The notes under the pieces were generated by a model that made no database searches, was not told the DNA's origin, and worked only from the letters and a program-made list of their open reading frames with translations. 34,842 nt of DNA, taken from assembly GCA_020437545.1 (NCBI GenBank), contig JAGQWH010000018.1, forward strand, positions 1-34,842, written 5' to 3'. Of the stretch, positions 1,966-34,842 are shown piece by piece. This DNA is from Ignavibacteriota bacterium. GTDB lineage: Bacteria; Bacteroidota; Ignavibacteria; Tepidaquicellales; Tepidaquicellaceae. The first letter of the stretch is position 1; every line of letters starts with the position of its first letter. The translations under genes were made by a program, and so were the position numbers.

Positions 1966-4023
1966 TTAATTAATTTGTCTTTTTAATAACCGGGCATTTA
2001 CTGCAACTATAATTGTACTCAGACTCATGAATACAGCGCCAACAGCAGGTCCCAATACAAATCCCGATGAATATAAAACTCCCGCTGCAAGCGGAATTGC
2101 AATTACATTATATCCAGTAGCCCATGCAATATTCTGGATCATTTTATTGTATGTAGCTTTACCGAATAAGATCAGACTTGCTATGTCTTTTGGATTACTG
2201 TTGACGAGGACTATATCAGCCGTTTCAACGGCTACGTCTGTTCCGGATCCAACTGCTATTCCAACATCAGCCTGTGCTAAAGCAGGAGCATCGTTTACTC
2301 CGTCTCCGGTCATCGCAACAAACTCACCTTTGCACTGAAGCTCTTTTACAATCTCAACTTTCTGATGTGGTAAAACTTCTGAATAGTATCCGTCAAGTCC
2401 GAGTTCGTCCGATACTGCTTTTGCAACGGTCTCATTATCGCCTGTTGCCATCATTACTTTGATCCCGTTTTTCCTGAATATTCTAATCGCATCATTACTT
2501 TCAGGTCTGATGGTATCAGCTAAAGAAATATACCCCGCAACTTTCCCATCAATTATTACAAACACAACTGTCTCAGCTTTACTTGAAAAAGATCCTTCAG
2601 GAAAAGTCAGATCATTCTCCTTCAGATAACCCGGACTTACCACTTTTACGGATTTCCCTTCCACTATTGCTTCTACGCCTTTTCCGGTGATAGCATTAAA
2701 ATTCTCAGCATCCGGAATTTTCAGATCAAGATCTTTAACTTTATCGATTATACCAACTGCAATGGGATGCTCGGATGACTGTTCGAGTGCGCTCGCCAGT
2801 CTGAGCATCTCTTCTGCTGAAATTCCGGAGACACTTTCAAAACGGGTAACACCAAATATACCTGTTGTAAGTGTTCCGGTTTTATCAAACAATAAAACAG
2901 TTATCTTCCGGGATTCTTCAAACGCAGTTCTGTTGCGGATAAGAAGTCCGTGCTGTGCAGATACGGAAATAGAAATAGCGACAACTAAAGGTATTGCCAG
3001 TCCAAGCGCATGAGGACAGGTTATTACCATTACAGTTACCATTCTTTCTAATGCAAATACAAACGGATATCCTGCGATCAGCCAGACAGCCAGTGTTCCG
3101 AATCCAATTGTCAATGCAATATAAGTCAGCCATTTAGCAGCGCGGTCTGAAAGATTCTGCATTCTGGATTTTGTCTTCTGTGCTTCTGCAACAAGGGTTA
3201 TAACTTTATTCAGATAACTGTCTTTACCTGTATGTTCCACTTTCATCTTAAGAGAGCCGTTACCATTGATCGAACCGCCTATGACTTTACTGTCTTTATC
3301 TTTTTTAACCGGCTTGGATTCTCCGGTCAGCATGGATTCATTTACATAACTGCTGCCTTCTGTGATTATTCCGTCTGCCGGAACTTTCTCTCCAGGTTTG
3401 ATAAGTATGGTGTCATTTATTTTCAACATGTCAAGTTTGACATCTTCAACATTTCCATATTCATCTACTCTGTGCGCTTCAGCCGGCATCATGCTGACCA
3501 GTAATTGTAATGCCTTTGACGCGCCCAGTACTGACTTCATTTCGATCCAGTGTCCTAGTAACATTATGTCTATAAGTGTCGCGAGTTCCCAGAAAAAATC
3601 AACTCCCTTTAGTCCAAACACAGTTGCAGTACTGTAAAAATATGCTACTGATATAGCCATCGCGATCAGTGTCATCATACCCGGATTCTTAGATCTCACT
3701 TCTTCATAAAATCCTTTTAAGAACGGTAAACCGCCCCAGAAGTAAACGATCGAAGAGAGTACAAAAAGAATATATGGATTGCCCGGCAGCAGCCATTCAT
3801 ACCCGAAGAACATCTGTATCATGGGAGAGAAGATCAAAATGGGAATGGTAAGTATTAGTGTAACCCAAAACCGTTTCTTGAAATCCTCAATCATCATCTG
3901 ATGATGATCATGTCCTTCCATTCCCATAGGGATGTTTTCATGACCCATTTTTGAATGATCCATTTTACTGTGATCTATTTTTGAGTGATCCATTTTACTG
4001 TGATCCATTTTTGAATGATCCAT
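1966..4023 (-). CDS. copB: CopB-type P1B copper-exporting ATPase with His-rich MDHSK repeats
   Basis: A 685-residue metal P-type ATPase. In order: a His/Met-rich cytoplasmic tail (residues 1-44) with five MDHSK/IDHSK repeats and GHDHHQM; transmembrane helices; the actuator motif TGES (233-236); the metal-site motif CPH (336-338) in TM6; the phosphorylated Asp in DKTGT (380-384); then GDGVNDAP; and two last helices with MSLSTIIVA. CPH rather than CPC, plus a His-rich tail in place of an HMA domain, defines the CopB (P1B-3) class known for Cu(I)/Cu(II)/Ag export. Length is normal and no lesion is seen. It follows the DUF3347 lipoprotein gene (47 bp gap) and precedes HMA-MauE. A truncated relative lies at 9304-9671. 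Confidence 0.96.
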   Translation of the reverse strand: MDHSKMDHSKMDHSKIDHSKMDHSKMGHENIPMGMEGHDHHQMMIEDFKKRFWVTLILTIPILIFSPMIQMFFGYEWLLPGNPYILFVLSSIVYFWGGLPFLKGFYEEVRSKNPGMMTLIAMAISVAYFYSTATVFGLKGVDFFWELATLIDIMLLGHWIEMKSVLGASKALQLLVSMMPAEAHRVDEYGNVEDVKLDMLKINDTILIKPGEKVPADGIITEGSSYVNESMLTGESKPVKKDKDSKVIGGSINGNGSLKMKVEHTGKDSYLNKVITLVAEAQKTKSRMQNLSDRAAKWLTYIALTIGFGTLAVWLIAGYPFVFALERMVTVMVITCPHALGLAIPLVVAISISVSAQHGLLIRNRTAFEESRKITVLLFDKTGTLTTGIFGVTRFESVSGISAEEMLRLASALEQSSEHPIAVGIIDKVKDLDLKIPDAENFNAITGKGVEAIVEGKSVKVVSPGYLKENDLTFPEGSFSSKAETVVFVIIDGKVAGYISLADTIRPESNDAIRIFRKNGIKVMMATGDNETVAKAVSDELGLDGYYSEVLPHQKVEIVKELQCKGEFVAMTGDGVNDAPALAQADVGIAVGSGTDVAVETADIVLVNSNPKDIASLILFGKATYNKMIQNIAWATGYNVIAIPLAAGVLYSSGFVLGPAVGAVFMSLSTIIVAVNARLLKRQIN
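3949..4023 (-). repeat. Tandem coding repeat, five MDHSK units
   Basis: The first 75 coding bases of the CopB-type ATPase are five 15-bp units. Ser codons alternate between TCA and AGT, so the true DNA period is 30 bp, about 2.5 copies. Such an array could gain or lose His/Met units by slippage. Confidence 0.85.
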
Positions 4024-21751: not shown

Positions 21752-22213
21752 TTATTCTTTCCTGTCTTCAGGAAGCTTGCAACAATCACTGAGATTTTTG
21801 TAACCCTTCGGATCCGCTTTCATTTGATTTGCATCATAGCCTGCTGCTGTAATTATAGCTTCGATTTTAGTGATATCAGTTTTATTTTTATCAAAGTCTA
21901 TATGAGCCATTTTTTCATTTTTATCAACATTGATACTGTTTACTCCGTCTGAGTTTTTTACCGCAGTCTCAATTGTCTTCTTGCACATTCCGCACTGCAT
22001 AGACCCTAATGTTATATCTGCATGTTCCATATTGCTGTGATTGGTCATTTTATCTTTATTCATTGTTTCTGAATTTTCTTTTATAGTTTCAGTCTTCTTT
22101 GTATCACCTGATACGTCTCCTGATTCTTTACTTCCGCAACCGCCGATCAATACTGTGATCAACAGAATTGTTAACAATGACAAAAAAGTGTTTCTTAGAT
22201 TTTGGTTTTTCAT
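21752..22213 (-). CDS. HMA-domain lipoprotein with Cys-Cys tail (paralogue C)
   Basis: A 153-residue lipoprotein: lipobox LIGGC (Cys26), a Met/His linker (MNKDKMTNHSNMEHAD), HMA motif SMQCGMC (Cys74, Cys77) and the tail GYDANQMKADPKGYKNLSDCCKLP, with Cys144-Cys145. It lies between the system 1 adaptor gene and the system 2 cluster. The HMA core matches paralogues A and B. Metal capture is the expected role. Confidence 0.9.
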   Translation of the reverse strand: MKNQNLRNTFLSLLTILLITVLIGGCGSKESGDVSGDTKKTETIKENSETMNKDKMTNHSNMEHADITLGSMQCGMCKKTIETAVKNSDGVNSINVDKNEKMAHIDFDKNKTDITKIEAIITAAGYDANQMKADPKGYKNLSDCCKLPEDRKE

Positions 22214-22271
22214 TTTTGATTTTATTTAAGTTAAAAAATTTTCTTTTGAATGTTTAATTCATTTATCAACT

Positions 22272-22291
22272 CAATCCGCTATAGCGGATTG
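22272..22291. repeat. 20-bp perfect palindrome CAATCCGCTATAGCGGATTG
   Basis: A perfect 20-base palindrome 8 bp past the adaptor stop and 58 bp before the HMA lipoprotein start. No T tract follows on the minus strand, so it is not a classic terminator. It may be an extragenic palindrome, a protein-binding site or a stabilising 3' hairpin. Confidence 0.7.
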
Positions 22292-22298
22292 CTGCAAA

Positions 22299-23645
22299 TT
22301 ATTTTTTCATATCTTTCATTACATCCTGTCCTTTATTGAATTTTGGATCTCCTTTTACTTCCATTTCCATTCCTTCCATGTTGTGCGTGGATGTTCCGGT
22401 GCGGATCTGACTCTCGCTGTCTATAAGGAATCCGGCGCTGGTAACTATTTCATCTCCTTCTGATAATCCTGAAGTAATTAAATAGTAACCATCTTTTTCA
22501 CCCCCGACCGATACCAATTTTGGAGAAAATACATTTTCCCCTTTTTTAACATATACCATATCCATCTTGCCGGTTCTTAATACTGCATTTCTCGGAACTA
22601 CAATATTCCACTGATAATTAGCCGAACCGATTTCCGCTTTTACAAACATATCCGGCTTTAATCTGTAATTCCTGTTTGACACATCAAATCGCACCTCAAG
22701 CGTTCTGGAATCAGGATCAAGTACCGGACTGATAAAATTCACTTTTGCATTAAATACTTCACCCGGATATGCAACTGAAGTGATCTTCGCCGTCTGTCCC
22801 ATTTTGATATTGCTGATATCGGATTCGGGTACACTTGCTATAACCCAAAGTGTTGACATATCAACGACATCATAGATATCCTCACCTGCTGATGCCCAGT
22901 GTCCTTCATGTACTATCTTCTTTGTGATCACTCCGCTGTATTTTGAATAAACCGGTATATAATCGTGTACTTCCTGAGTATTTTCCAATTCCTCTATCTG
23001 ATCCTGAGTCATTTCCCATAATCTGAGACGGTTCCTGGTTGCACTGATCAGATTTTCTGCCTGAGCTATTACCAGTTCATTGTTACTGTTTTTTGCATTA
23101 TCTAGATTTCTTAATGCAAGTAAATATTCTTTTTGAGTAGAATAAATTTCAGGTGAATAGATATCAAGTACTTTTTCACCTTTGCTTACAATCTGTCCTT
23201 CATAATTAACATACATCCTTACAAGCTTTCCGGAGATCGGAGTAGCAATATGCCTCATGTTGCTTTCAGCAATTTTTATGAATCCGTTAAACTCCATACC
23301 GCTTTTAAATTCTTTAATGGATACCTTCTCTGTCTGCACATTTGCAAGCACTTGCTGGGAAGGTGATAATTTTACATCCCCAATCTCATTTACATGATCC
23401 TTTAAAGAATGAAATTCATCTTCATTTTCAGTGTTAACTTCTTCTTTCAATACAAGATCCATGTTGCAGATCGGACATACACCCGGATGGTCACTTCTGA
23501 TCTGTGGATGCATTGGACATATATACAATTCTTCTGCTTTGACAACTCCATTACTGTCATTTTTTTCAATGAATAATTTGTAGACCCCGAATGAAGCTCC
23601 CGCTATCGCTAAGATCACTAATACCGTTATAATTAATTTTTTCAT
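22299..23645 (-). CDS. RND periplasmic adaptor with N-terminal HMBD (CusB-like, system 1)
   Basis: A 448-residue adaptor: signal helix, heavy-metal-binding domain at about 41-65 (YICPMHPQIRS, CPICNMDLV), then the CusB-type core with HIATPISGKLVRMYV, a helical hairpin, YIPVYSKYSGVITKKIV, TLWVIASVPESD and SGLSEGDEIVTSAGF. The C-terminus has a Met-rich tail (MEGMEMEVKGDPKF). HMBD-bearing adaptors are typical of Cu/Ag systems. The TolC partner is directly upstream. A matching permease does not follow; the CusA start at 1-252 is the candidate. Confidence 0.94.
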   Translation of the reverse strand: MKKLIITVLVILAIAGASFGVYKLFIEKNDSNGVVKAEELYICPMHPQIRSDHPGVCPICNMDLVLKEEVNTENEDEFHSLKDHVNEIGDVKLSPSQQVLANVQTEKVSIKEFKSGMEFNGFIKIAESNMRHIATPISGKLVRMYVNYEGQIVSKGEKVLDIYSPEIYSTQKEYLLALRNLDNAKNSNNELVIAQAENLISATRNRLRLWEMTQDQIEELENTQEVHDYIPVYSKYSGVITKKIVHEGHWASAGEDIYDVVDMSTLWVIASVPESDISNIKMGQTAKITSVAYPGEVFNAKVNFISPVLDPDSRTLEVRFDVSNRNYRLKPDMFVKAEIGSANYQWNIVVPRNAVLRTGKMDMVYVKKGENVFSPKLVSVGGEKDGYYLITSGLSEGDEIVTSAGFLIDSESQIRTGTSTHNMEGMEMEVKGDPKFNKGQDVMKDMKK

Positions 23646-23713
23646 TTTAAATATTTTAAGATTGTAATTTTTCTTTTATCTCTTGTCTGTTCTGTAAATT
23701 TATTTCTCTGTAA

Positions 23714-23735
23714 AATTTCTATAACTTTAGAAATT
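23714..23735. promoter_or_regulatory. Inverted repeat AATTTCTA-N6-TAGAAATT (candidate operator)
   Basis: An 8-bp perfect inverted repeat in the 137-bp gap upstream of the system 1 adaptor. It could be a regulator site or weak hairpin. AT-rich composition makes chance plausible. Confidence 0.3.
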
Positions 23736-23782
23736 GTTTCATAGAAATCATTCCGCCGCCGCGTATCATTCCAAATCCCCGT

Positions 23783-25057
23783 CTAATTAACAGTTAAAAT
23801 TTGTACACCTATAATTTTTTCAAGATTGCTTATAAGAATAAGATAATTTGTCTCCTCTTCGACCATCATTTTGTTATTTTGAATTAAGGATCTGTATGTA
23901 TCCAGAAGATCTATAAACTGATTTGAAGCTGTTTCATATGAGATCAGAGATGATTTGAAAGTCTCTTCTGTCTGCGGTATCAAAACTTCATTCAGGTATT
24001 TAATTTTTTCCTGAGATGAATTTATCATTACTATAATATTCTTCAATTCATTTTTCAGATTTACCTCGAGAGACTTCACTTCCGAATTTATTTTCTTTTC
24101 CATAATGATCTTCTCTTTTATCATAGCATCAATCCGTTTTTCATTCCATGGCATGAACGGAAGCTCCACTCCGATCCCGAATGATAAAAAACTCTCCTGC
24201 ATACCCGAATTATATTTGTATCCCGTTATAAGATTCAGATCAGGTTTTCTTTCAAGTTCGGATATAGTAGTTTCAATTTTATTTTCTTTGTTTTGCTGAT
24301 CCAATAATTTATAATCTGTATTATTAGATCTCATCTCGGAAATGAGCTTTGTTGTATCAAGATCCGGCGGGTTAATTTTTAAAAGTATGTTAAGGTTTTT
24401 GGTCTTAAAATCATCCGGAAGATCAATGTTTGTAAGTGTTCTGAGATTATTTAAGAATATTTTTTTATTATTGTTTAGTTCGATCTCTTCCAGCAGCAGC
24501 TTTTGGTATTCGTTATTACTTTTAAGAATATCGTACTGACTGCCTTTACCAACGGAATATTTTATTTCAAGCGAACCGGTAATGGAATGCATTATCTCTT
24601 TAAATTCATCATTAAAAGAAAGTAATCTTTCATTTACCGAAAGCATGAAATAATTTTCTTTTACCATTTTTATGAGTTCGATCTGCAATGCTTCTTTTTG
24701 AATTTCAGGTCTCAATGAATTAATCTTTGCAAGCGATTCCTTTGCATCGAGTTTACCGAATAGTTTTAACGGCTGCAAATAATTGACTTTGTAATTACCT
24801 GCATCACTTAAATTAACAGGAAGATCATCCAGCATAAATTCAAACATAGGTGAAGACTGATATCCTGCCTGATCTATTTTTGTAGAGAGTAACTTTTGTT
24901 CAAGATCAACAGGCTCAAGATTTACATTGGTTTTAATAGCAGCATTGACGAGATCCGTCAGTCCTGTATAGGAATATTTGGAATTGTCGGTTGTTGAATC
25001 CTGCTGAGCTATCAGCAGGTTAGAGATAAATAATATGAATATTAGAATGTGTTTCAT
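23783..25057 (-). CDS. TolC-family outer-membrane efflux protein (CusC-like, system 1)
   Basis: A 424-residue outer-membrane factor: signal peptide ending LLIAQ, two similar long-helix repeats (SYQSSPMFEFMLDDLPVNL region, then GYKYNSGMQESFLSFGIGVELPFMPWNEKR), and coiled-coil helices after each. It pairs with the HMBD adaptor 137 bp downstream. A hairpin terminator upstream (25070-25111) isolates it from the Cys-rich exported protein gene, so it likely has its own promoter. Confidence 0.92.
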   Translation of the reverse strand: MKHILIFILFISNLLIAQQDSTTDNSKYSYTGLTDLVNAAIKTNVNLEPVDLEQKLLSTKIDQAGYQSSPMFEFMLDDLPVNLSDAGNYKVNYLQPLKLFGKLDAKESLAKINSLRPEIQKEALQIELIKMVKENYFMLSVNERLLSFNDEFKEIMHSITGSLEIKYSVGKGSQYDILKSNNEYQKLLLEEIELNNNKKIFLNNLRTLTNIDLPDDFKTKNLNILLKINPPDLDTTKLISEMRSNNTDYKLLDQQNKENKIETTISELERKPDLNLITGYKYNSGMQESFLSFGIGVELPFMPWNEKRIDAMIKEKIIMEKKINSEVKSLEVNLKNELKNIIVMINSSQEKIKYLNEVLIPQTEETFKSSLISYETASNQFIDLLDTYRSLIQNNKMMVEEETNYLILISNLEKIIGVQILTVN

Positions 25058-32421: not shown

Positions 32422-33420
32422 TTATTTCAGAATAAACAATAATATCATAAGACCTGCATAAAGCAGTAATATTATAAAAGCGTCAGCAGCAAGAAGAAAT
32501 CTCTTTCGCTCTGCCTTGAACAACAATCCGATCGCAGCGACTGCAGTCATTATTATTACAAACAATATTGAGATCAGATTCTCAGGATGAATCGCAGCGA
32601 AAAGAGAGCCTCCCCTGTAAAACAGATCATCTATTCCAAGTATAAAAATATTGAAAATGTTACTGCCGAATAAATTTCCTACCGCCATATCCACAGAGCC
32701 AATTCTAATCGCTGAAATGCATACAACTAACTCCGGAAGAGATGTTGATATTGCAAGAAATAAAGTCCCGAAGAATGTATTTCCCATTCCCGATTGCGTG
32801 GCAAGAATATTTCCGAAGTAAGGCAGAAACAGTGCAGCAGCTACAACTATAAACGCATTAAAAGCATAACGCATAAGGGTTTTCTGAAGTGCAGCAGAAT
32901 CTGTTTTTACTAATTCTTTTTCCTTTGCCTTTTGATCATTTCTGTTTTCAAATTTGAAAATTAACCAGATAGATAATAAATAAACTATAAATATAACCGG
33001 TGTCATTAAACTGATCCATCCGATAACAGGTGTTTCTGCAGACAAAAGGATTGCAAGCCCGCTGAGTGTAATTAGAATTATTCCGCATGCACCGGCAAAT
33101 ACATGTGTACTTCTTACTAAAGAAGTAATAGGTTTTTTTAAAAGTACATCAAGTATGGATAAAATAAAAAGATTAAAAACACAACTGCCGAATATATCAC
33201 CTGCAGCAAGATCAGGGGCATTTACGATTGCTACTGAACTTATACCCGTGATCAGTTCGGGAAGTGATGTAATAGATGCCATCATTATCAGCCCGATCCA
33301 TGCCTTGCCTAAACCCGTTTGCTCCGCAATCCGATCACCATAAAAAGAAAGTTTTATACCTGCATAAACAATCGCTGCTGAACAAAATATAAATCCTGAT
33401 ATAGATTCTAAAACTTCCAA
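32422..33420 (-). CDS. CaCA-family Ca2+/cation antiporter (YrbG-like), TTG start
   Basis: A 332-residue protein with about ten helices and two inverted alpha-repeats. Repeat 1 has GLIMMASITSLPELITGIS and GDIFGSCVFNLFIL; repeat 2 has FLAISTSLPELVVCI and VGNLFGSNIFNIFIL. These are the ion-binding motifs of the family. The start is TTG at 33420, giving MEVLESISGFIF with TM1 complete; the next in-frame Met is about residue 46, too late. An in-frame stop lies just upstream, inside the heptamer array. Expected role: Ca2+ (or Na+/Ca2+) exchange beside the P2-type ATPase. Confidence 0.88.
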   Translation of the reverse strand: MEVLESISGFIFCSAAIVYAGIKLSFYGDRIAEQTGLGKAWIGLIMMASITSLPELITGISSVAIVNAPDLAAGDIFGSCVFNLFILSILDVLLKKPITSLVRSTHVFAGACGIILITLSGLAILLSAETPVIGWISLMTPVIFIVYLLSIWLIFKFENRNDQKAKEKELVKTDSAALQKTLMRYAFNAFIVVAAALFLPYFGNILATQSGMGNTFFGTLFLAISTSLPELVVCISAIRIGSVDMAVGNLFGSNIFNIFILGIDDLFYRGGSLFAAIHPENLISILFVIIMTAVAAIGLLFKAERKRFLLAADAFIILLLYAGLMILLFILK

Positions 33421-33423
33421 TGG

Positions 33424-33462
33424 TATTAAGTATTAAGTATTAAGTATTAAGTATTAAGTATT
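33424..33462. repeat. Heptanucleotide array (TATTAAG)5.6 upstream of the CaCA antiporter
   Basis: Five perfect copies plus four bases of TATTAAG, with no interruption, begin 3 bp upstream of the TTG start at 33420. A 7-bp unit is not a multiple of three, so copy-number changes would alter spacing or frame. Stops occur within each unit on the minus strand. Confidence 0.95.
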
Positions 33463-33554
33463 GATCCGTCTTGGCAGATTGAGAATTGAGTAAATCGTTT
33501 TTTTTTAGAAGTTCATTGAACAAAATAACTCATCAATATTCTTTTGCCAAAAGA

Positions 33555-34787
33555 TCAGGAAAGCCTCTTTGCAAGTTTCCCGATGGTTAATCCCTGCACC
33601 AGAATGGTAAAGCACACTACAACGTATGTAATAGTGACCAGCAATTGCCGGTTATATTCGGGAAGTATTGAAAGTGCAAGAGCAATTGATATACCGCCTC
33701 TCAATCCGCCCCACGTAATTATGATAAGAGTTTTCTGAGAGATCTTCTCTTTATATCTGATAAGCAATGAGGGAACCCAGACTGAAATATATCTAGCAAA
33801 CAGACATACAAATATTGCCATTACGGAAATCAAAAAAACTTTAAATTCAAAATCTATTAAAAGTAACTGAAGTCCCATTAATACAAAAAGTATGGTGTTC
33901 AGGATCTCATCTATCAGTTCCCAGAATTTATCCACATACTCAACAGACATTTTTGACATTCCTAATTTCTTGCTTTTATTACCTGTAATTATCCCGGCTG
34001 TTACCATTGCAAGAGGTCCCGAAACATTTGTAAGATCGGCAATTGTATATCCGCCCATCACAATTGCAAGTGTGATCATTACTACAATCTTATAATTTTC
34101 TATATTTTTTATTAATCTGTACCCTACAAATCCGAGTATAATGCCTAATAAAATTCCGCCAAAAGCCTCCTGACCAAACAACTTGAGTATCGTCATAGCA
34201 TCTATCTCCGTTCCGGGCTTTGACATTTTTAAAAAAGCTAGAAAAGTTACGACTGCTACACCATCATTAAAGAGTGACTCTCCTGCAATTTTTGTTTCAA
34301 GGGATTTTGATACCCCGGCACTTTTAAGTATACTCATTACTGCAATAGGATCTGTAGGTGAGATCAATGCACCGAAAAGAAATCCATGAAGTATGTTTAT
34401 ATTTATGCCGAACATTAAAAGAACATAGTATGATAAAAATCCTATCACTAGAGTACTGATAATTACACTTAGAGAGGAAAACAGGAGTATACTTAGTTTT
34501 TCACTTTTAAGATCTTCAAATCTTACATGTATAGCTCCGGCAAAAAGCATAAAGCTCAGCATTCCTTCAAGCAAAAGCTCACTGAAATTCAAAGTCAGTA
34601 ATTCTTTGTTTAATAAATATTCCAGACCCGGAAAGATCTGCCCCAGAAGAATAACTATTCCTGAAAATACAAGTGAAACGATCATAAGTCCTATCGTTAC
34701 CGGAAATTTCAGTAATCGGAAATTTATAATTGCAAACCCCGCGGAGATGACTACAAGAATTGATATTATGTGAAATACACCAAGCAA
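33555..34787 (-). CDS. CPA1-family Na+/H+ antiporter (NhaP-like), TTG start
   Basis: A 410-residue protein with about twelve helices. FGALISPTDPIAVMSIL and ETKIAGESLFNDGVAVVTFL are the ion-binding signature regions of CPA1 antiporters (the ND motif after GES). LWR-type and SGGLRG-like segments (ITWGGLRGGISIALAL) occur near the C-terminus. The start is TTG at 34787; it gives a complete first helix (IISILVVISAGFAIINF). The next Met is near residue 35. An in-frame TAA from the heptamer array lies 4 codons upstream. Role: Na+(K+)/H+ exchange and pH homeostasis. No soluble C-terminal domain is present. Confidence 0.9.
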   Translation of the reverse strand: MLGVFHIISILVVISAGFAIINFRLLKFPVTIGLMIVSLVFSGIVILLGQIFPGLEYLLNKELLTLNFSELLLEGMLSFMLFAGAIHVRFEDLKSEKLSILLFSSLSVIISTLVIGFLSYYVLLMFGININILHGFLFGALISPTDPIAVMSILKSAGVSKSLETKIAGESLFNDGVAVVTFLAFLKMSKPGTEIDAMTILKLFGQEAFGGILLGIILGFVGYRLIKNIENYKIVVMITLAIVMGGYTIADLTNVSGPLAMVTAGIITGNKSKKLGMSKMSVEYVDKFWELIDEILNTILFVLMGLQLLLIDFEFKVFLISVMAIFVCLFARYISVWVPSLLIRYKEKISQKTLIIITWGGLRGGISIALALSILPEYNRQLLVTITYVVVCFTILVQGLTIGKLAKRLS

Positions 34788-34796
34788 ATGAATCAG

Positions 34797-34842
34797 TTAA
34801 TAGTTAATAGTTAATAGTTAATAGTTAATAGTTAATAGTTAA
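34797..34842. repeat. Heptanucleotide array (TTAATAG)6.6, runs to window end
   Basis: Six perfect units plus four bases of TTAATAG, continuing at least to the window edge, so the copy number is a minimum. It begins 9 bp upstream of the TTG start of the CPA1 antiporter. The unit is related in composition to, but not the same as, TATTAAG at 33424-33462. Confidence 0.95.

Follow-up and report, generated by a model that had tools for sequence, protein, structure and literature searches.

Polar heptamer arrays at gene edges in an Ignavibacteria genome, described from the start of a CPA1 antiporter gene

Introduction

The cyanobacterial STRRs are known repeats of the heptanucleotide type. For heptanucleotide long simple sequence repeats (LSSRs) in general, PMC4679880 cites Mrazek et al. 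2007, and PMC4692102 cites Calothrix heptanucleotides. The G-rich heptamers of Xanthomonas and Nostoc, GGGAATC and GGGGAYT, have no function found, and G-quadruplexes have been the focus of their description; the 5' end of their G-containing strand is nearest a gene whatever the orientation of the ORF (PMC4692102). In Maribeggiatoa, repeats of a different heptamer, TAACTGA, lie just upstream of start codons and have been put forward as translational elements; a few cases come from Bacteroidetes (PMC4679880). Arrays of heptamers are found here and there among bacteria.

The array described here lies at one end of the window, the whole stretch of 34,842 nt of Ignavibacteriota DNA that was analysed, directly in front of the gene of a CPA1-type Na+/H+ antiporter. 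A neighbouring exchanger gene carries a second array of another unit. From these two cases, a preliminary description suggested a lineage habit of placing variable heptamers at initiation sites.

Data and definitions

The window is one entire contig (C99) of the source assembly, G000, a metagenome-assembled genome (MAG) which comprises 429 contigs and 4.29 Mb and whose closest named relatives are MAGs of Ignavibacteria; G001 and G002 are genomes of sister species. The census drew on 2.02 Mb of the 4.29-Mb genome, of which 1.84 Mb was not selected for repeat hits. Census arrays are perfect period-7 tracts of at least 3 copies, and the control is a first-order Markov simulation. Genes were called with a codon-based caller and not taken from a reference annotation (1657 genes, 88% coding); this caller put the start of the CPA1 gene at an internal position.

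The array at the CPA1 start

Tandem Repeats Finder (TRF) reports a perfect array of 6.9 copies of AGTTAAT on the + strand, with period 7 and 100% matches (Table 1). On the coding strand, the sequence in front of the gene reads ...ACTATTAACTATTAACTGATTCAT-TTG. The perfect array stops 7 nt upstream of the TTG, or 9 nt if counted from the first whole TTAATAG, which agrees with the preliminary description of a TTAATAG-type heptamer 9 bp upstream. The span given there, 34785-34842, is right at its end and wrong at its start, position 34785 being part of the TTG codon (34787-34785). Both genes are ion transporters as had been proposed, with matches to PF00999 and PF01699, and the CPA1 protein matches PF00999 (Na_H_Exchanger) with 205.6 bits over residues 15-406, the full-length transmembrane domain.

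Table 1. Features of the two array-bearing genes, in window coordinates
Feature	Position	Strand	Basis
Array of the heptamer AGTTAAT, 6.9 copies (+ strand); reads (ACTATTA)n / (TTAACTA)n in coding orientation	34795..34842	-	TRF, sequence
TAACTGA, one copy at the array-gene junction	34793..34799	-	sequence reading
In-frame stop TAA just upstream of the CPA1 start, inside the junction TAACTGA	34799-34797	-	sequence reading
TTG start codon of the CPA1 antiporter; TTG also in two sister species	34785..34787	-	
CPA1-type Na+/H+ antiporter gene, 410 aa, PF00999	33555..34787	-	
Second heptamer array (GTATTAA)5.7 on + strand, (TTAATAC)n on coding strand	33423..33462	-	TRF, sequence
TTG at the start of the adjacent exchanger gene; also TTG in sister species	33418..33420	-	
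Na+/Ca2+ exchanger-family (CaCA) gene, 332 aa, PF01699 Na_Ca_ex	32422..33420	-	

The TTG is a credible start codon on sequence grounds. An in-frame TAA 9 nt upstream closes the reading frame, no alternative ATG lies nearby, and both sister species likewise have TTG here (G002, TTGCTTGGTGTATTCCAC; G001, TTGCTAGGTCTATTCCAC). In alignment, Flavobacterium homologues have their ATG no more than one codon away. TTG had been read as the start from the outset. In the predicted fold of the leader the array is almost wholly unpaired, and promoter and terminator scans at the array gave nothing exceeding shuffled sequence.

The locus shares with the Maribeggiatoa repeats a 7-bp unit, proximity to a start, a coding-strand unit near TAACTGA, a TAACTGA at the junction and little use of Shine-Dalgarno (SD) sequences. 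The array unit itself, TTAACTA, differs from TAACTGA, which occurs singly. Furthermore, whereas the Maribeggiatoa repeats are mostly forward, end a few nucleotides before starts and have one fixed unit, the genome-wide set here is biased towards stops, falls into 37 unit families and shows turnover of units between species. The arrays of the window and of the genome lack both defining features of the TAACTGA repeats, the unit and the start majority.

Two other sequences of the window can be recorded here. CTGCCAAGACGGATC adjoins the second array (near 33463-33480) and is related to palindromic, REP-like elements, ATCCGC[CG]G...[CG]GCGGAT, which are found in 13 places in the 2.02 Mb, all intergenic, 4 of them within 20 bp of a heptamer array. 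At 3940-4023, a 30-bp (15-bp) tandem repeat lies in the first codons of a 685-aa minus-strand ORF (1966-4023); it is coding and is not a heptamer.

Full length of the array and the upstream paralogue

The CPA1 array touches the last base of the window and thus of its contig, so that 6.9 copies is a minimum and the true length has been cut by the assembly. Of the 104 contig ends examined, 6 have a heptamer array within their last 60 bp, which exceeds the expectation from overall density. In both sister species a second CPA1 paralogue, about 67% identical to the first, lies just upstream of the CPA1 gene (G001:C152 and G002:C139), and the intergenic region of G002 reads CAACTGA-ACTTTTA-ACTTTCA-ACTTTTA...-CATAATCAT-TTG. 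In G000, the upstream paralogue is found at the end of another contig, C30, the terminus of which is 7-periodic, CAACTGA-GCTATGA-ACTATGA-ACTATGA.... Because C30 ends in the same register as the sister-species array, with drifted units, C30 and C99 most likely abut within a single array with some 31 + 7 copies or more (~38+), a join deduced from the sequence and not assembled. The drifted units across this array are ACTTTTA, ACTATGA and ACTATTA.

We favour, with reasonable though far from full confidence, the view that the CPA1 array is the terminal part of a long heptamer microsatellite in the intergenic DNA between tandem CPA1 paralogues, grown by slippage and filtered at gene edges, and that it is no dedicated switch.

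Turnover between species

The CPA1 site carries an array in all three genomes, with about 5 copies in G002, 8.3 in G001 and at least about 38 in G000. The units keep the same register, being CAACTGA-(ACTTTTA)n in G002 and CAACTGA-(GCTATGA/ACTATGA)n...(ACTATTA)n in G000. At the exchanger, G000 carries 5.7 copies, G002 about 2.7 of a different unit and G001 at most a degenerate array. A further orthologous site, on contig C429, bears an AACTTTY array that is about 14 copies long in G000 but 4 in G002. Between sister species the heptamers are variable, as had been supposed, in copy number and in unit. Windows with the GTTRAAA pattern number 622 in G000, 106 in the incomplete G001 and 5 in G002, and GTTRAAA-positive genomes amount to 4 of 149 in the class and 7 of 296 in the phylum. 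This looks like a recent burst of arrays at the level of the lineage. In a further genome of the same family, all eight GTTRAAA matches fall within about 28 kb of a single contig (G142:C75, 30575-58390), and these could be acquired DNA or contamination.

The dominance of period 7 over periods 5-11, the intergenic location, the scattered phylogenetic distribution and the differences in copy number between close relatives are all shared with LSSRs and STRRs; the lineage, Ignavibacteria, is new and the burst apparently recent, which sets the present arrays apart.

Arrays also lie at two mismatch repair genes of G000. At both mutS (L049, C380 13079-15691) and mutL (L041, C110 4593-6437), an (ACTATTA/ACTACTA)n array, of the same unit as that of CPA1, ends within about 20 nt of the start, which in mutL is a TTG. 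From the base rate of 2.75% given below, the post hoc chance that both genes carry arrays is about 8e-4. A mutator switch based on these arrays was considered and set aside: in the sister genomes, a search for AACTNNY units lists none at either gene.

Abundance and placement in the genome

The 1.84 Mb contain 211 perfect period-7 arrays, compared with 0 in simulation; 122 of them have at least 4 copies, and simple extrapolation gives about 490 heptamer arrays genome-wide. Other periods are less frequent, with 20 arrays of period 8, 32 of period 9, 4 of period 6, 8 of period 5 and 15 of period 14; there is some excess of period 3, and periods other than 3, 7, 8, 9 and 14 are close to simulation. 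That the two neighbouring arrays of the window are not due to chance, as had been argued, is supported by these counts. The commonest units, AATACTC, AAAAGTT, AAAGTTG and AAAAATC, have no GGG on either strand.

Grouping of the arrays gave 177 clusters, 176 of which are intergenic and one within a gene. The intergenic clusters lie in co-directional (112), convergent (30) and divergent (15) regions or beside a contig end (19), and array density per kb declines from convergent (1.64) through co-directional (0.83) to divergent regions (0.33). Among the 112 co-directional clusters, 15 lie within 15 nt of a start, where uniform placement would give 14.4, whereas 33 lie within 15 nt of a stop, where 14.5 are expected and the permutation maximum is 27. 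Starts are thus at the chance level and stops enriched, and density peaks in convergent regions, which have no starts; together, these results lead us to reject start-site targeting. The supposed lineage habit therefore survives as an abundance of heptamer arrays and not as a placement at initiation sites: the genome scan for start-codon bias that had been proposed finds none in the 1.84 Mb, the very outcome that the preliminary description had named as contrary to its suggestion. A 7-periodic tract ends within 25 nt upstream of the start in about 2.75% of genes, and two neighbouring genes each with a start array are uncommon but not remarkable among thousands of genes.

Nor do the genes behind start-abutting arrays form a class. 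TTG starts are not significantly linked to arrays (5/20 versus 180/1584, P = 0.07), and no transporter class emerges: Pfam assignments of ten such genes comprise MutL, SDR, HAD, PGM, MoaC, a tail-tube gp19, TPR/cyclase, two antiporters and one unmatched protein. This small sample of ten shows no bias towards surface or host-interaction genes. The arrays resemble phase-variable contingency loci in being tandem repeats in a 5' leader whose copy number differs between relatives; they differ from them in this functional spread.

These data bear on the alternative that the heptamers are regulatory elements of the start site, acting in translation initiation or phase variation, for instance as sites for ribosomal protein S1 or cold-shock proteins or as leaders tuned by slippage; this is the direction of the preliminary description and of MacGregor's reading of TAACTGA. 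The CPA1 array lies directly at a start, it is kept together with the TTG in three species, and arrays are present at mutS and mutL too. Arrays that abut starts are G-free and pyrimidine-containing on the coding strand, and there is a precedent in Maribeggiatoa, where TAACTGA ends 1 nt upstream of start codons (PMC4679880). We nevertheless regard such a role as unlikely, given the chance-level placement at starts and the greater frequency at stops and in convergent regions, the unrelated functions of the downstream genes, the non-significant TTG enrichment, the missing or degenerate CaCA array of G001 and the lack of listed AACTNNY arrays at the sister mutS and mutL.

Polarity at gene edges

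The heptamer units are strand-asymmetric: in most of them one strand has G but lacks C, and no more than 22 of 176 clusters contain both. When an array lies within 15 nt of a gene edge, its G-containing strand points outward from the gene in 63 of 65 cases, namely at 14/15 co-directional starts, 30/31 co-directional stops and 19/19 convergent stops. Tabulating co-directional arrays by near-stop or near-start position and by G or C gives [[51,12],[10,35]] (Fisher P = 1e-9). The polarity weakens beyond about 60 nt from the edge. Under a relaxed array definition it stands at 63:2 for stops and 21:4 for starts. Units before starts are thus of the type AACTTTT, AATACTC, AAAAATC and TTAACTA, and those after stops are their reverse complements. 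Both arrays of the window obey the rule. Genes that end at arrays use TAA, TAG and TGA 17, 19 and 18 times, compared with 1009, 228 and 372 times overall (P = 6e-7), which indicates capture of the stop codon from the array.

With the satellites of Xanthomonas and Nostoc, the only and unrelated bacteria for which this polarity rule has been reported, the present arrays have in common the 7-bp unit, intergenic location, under-representation between divergent ORFs, gene-edge polarity, overlap with stop codons, convergent pairs, varied gene functions and variation in length and sequence among close relatives. By contrast with those G-quadruplex heptamers, the present units are AT-rich and their G-tracts few or absent (the window unit has one G), so that no G-quadruplex is expected; there are many unit families where the others have one, and stop codons are here captured from the array. 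Since polarity holds in AT-rich units without G-tracts, G-quadruplexes are insufficient as its cause. In IMG/VR viral contigs with GTTRAAA arrays (36 loci, L290-L325), 48 of 52 heptamer arrays lie outside called genes and the polarity is mixed (16:6 at stops, 6:7 at starts). A 0.9-Mb Nostoc plasmid has 13 arrays only, and few loci come from G001.

Any cause of the polarity named here is one that we infer. Because G-strands carry TTG starts and TGA or TAG stops and C-strands often carry neither, each side of a gene has one harmless orientation, and part of the polarity could come from such a codon filter. Codon avoidance as the sole cause is contradicted by arrays in which both strands lack a start codon and both contain stops; these arrays are still polar (18:0 at stops, 6:1 at starts). 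The codon content of an array is thus insufficient, unless orientation is inherited from codon-bearing ancestors, and codon-neutral arrays might indeed descend from codon-bearing relatives (GTTGAAA to GTTAAAA). General composition of gene edges is likewise rejected as the sole cause, array-free edges being skewed in the same direction but weakly.

A quite unlikely alternative, to our mind, is that the arrays are born oriented, through a strand-specific process (end-anchored slippage, repair synthesis or array copying) that extends the G-strand 5' to 3' from gene edges, in which case the polarity would be mechanistic and unselected. Indeed, 123 of 149 arrays (P = 3e-16) have the 5' end of their G-strand closer to a gene than the 3' end, regions with two arrays under the relaxed definition have them as '><' in 17 of 22 cases and never as '<>' (0/22), codon-neutral units are polar as well, and the rule recurs in Xanthomonas and Nostoc (PMC4692102). 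Directional growth should leave a gradient of unit decay along arrays, and there is none (P = 0.22); no enzyme or signal has been identified, and the fading of polarity beyond about 60 nt is also predicted by a selective filter.

The '><' pairs also invite the idea that arrays are the inverted termini of a composite, MITE-like intergenic mobile element, with G-strands directed outward from the flanking genes. Palindromic GGCGGAT elements are sometimes found inside arrays, and in two consecutive regions of contig C66 (L195, locus ~2080-3930, contig 22080-23930) near-identical middle sequences lie between GTATTGA and CAACTTT arrays; either a tandem duplication or a composite element may lie behind this repeated middle. 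We consider the mobile element very improbable, as the middle sequence at the C429 site is native and conserved in sister species, the two ends mostly belong to different unit families, and many regions have a single array.

A microsatellite probably filtered at gene edges

Growth by slippage followed by a filter at gene edges remains our preferred reading. Mismatch repair is expected to recognise loops of 7 nt poorly. Through slippage, and through point mutations that are then re-amplified, arrays would lengthen, shorten and switch unit. They would survive only in non-coding DNA and be scarce in promoter-rich divergent regions. Before starts, the polarity retained would be that which is C-containing and G-free on the coding strand; after stops, it would be G-containing and C-free, often providing the stop codon. 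The CPA1 array would then most likely be a mere G-free, unstructured 5' leader tolerated by initiation in an SD-poor lineage. SD-like 4-mers are found in 10.8% of leaders against 4.9% in background, and with such motifs rare a G-free leader is not obviously costly. We infer that slippage drives the arrays, that selection filters them and that they are neutral for expression. What counts against this explanation is a polarity stricter than a simple codon filter would produce.

Significance

An array next to a start is easily mistaken for a start-site element, whereas the census favours stops and gene edges. The published placement rule is valid here for units unable to form G-quadruplexes, which weakens the G-quadruplex explanation. 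A broader proposition, that the heptamer satellites of bacteria as unrelated as the Ignavibacteria studied here and the published Xanthomonas and Nostoc have in common a gene-edge polarity independent both of G-quadruplexes and of the start and stop codons of the array, is tentative and in our judgement rather doubtful. If it is true, it would suggest an undescribed strand-specific process, either the oriented synthesis of arrays from gene boundaries or a general constraint of transcription or translation on strand composition at gene ends. For such questions this one genome offers several hundred natural examples, with sister species for comparison.
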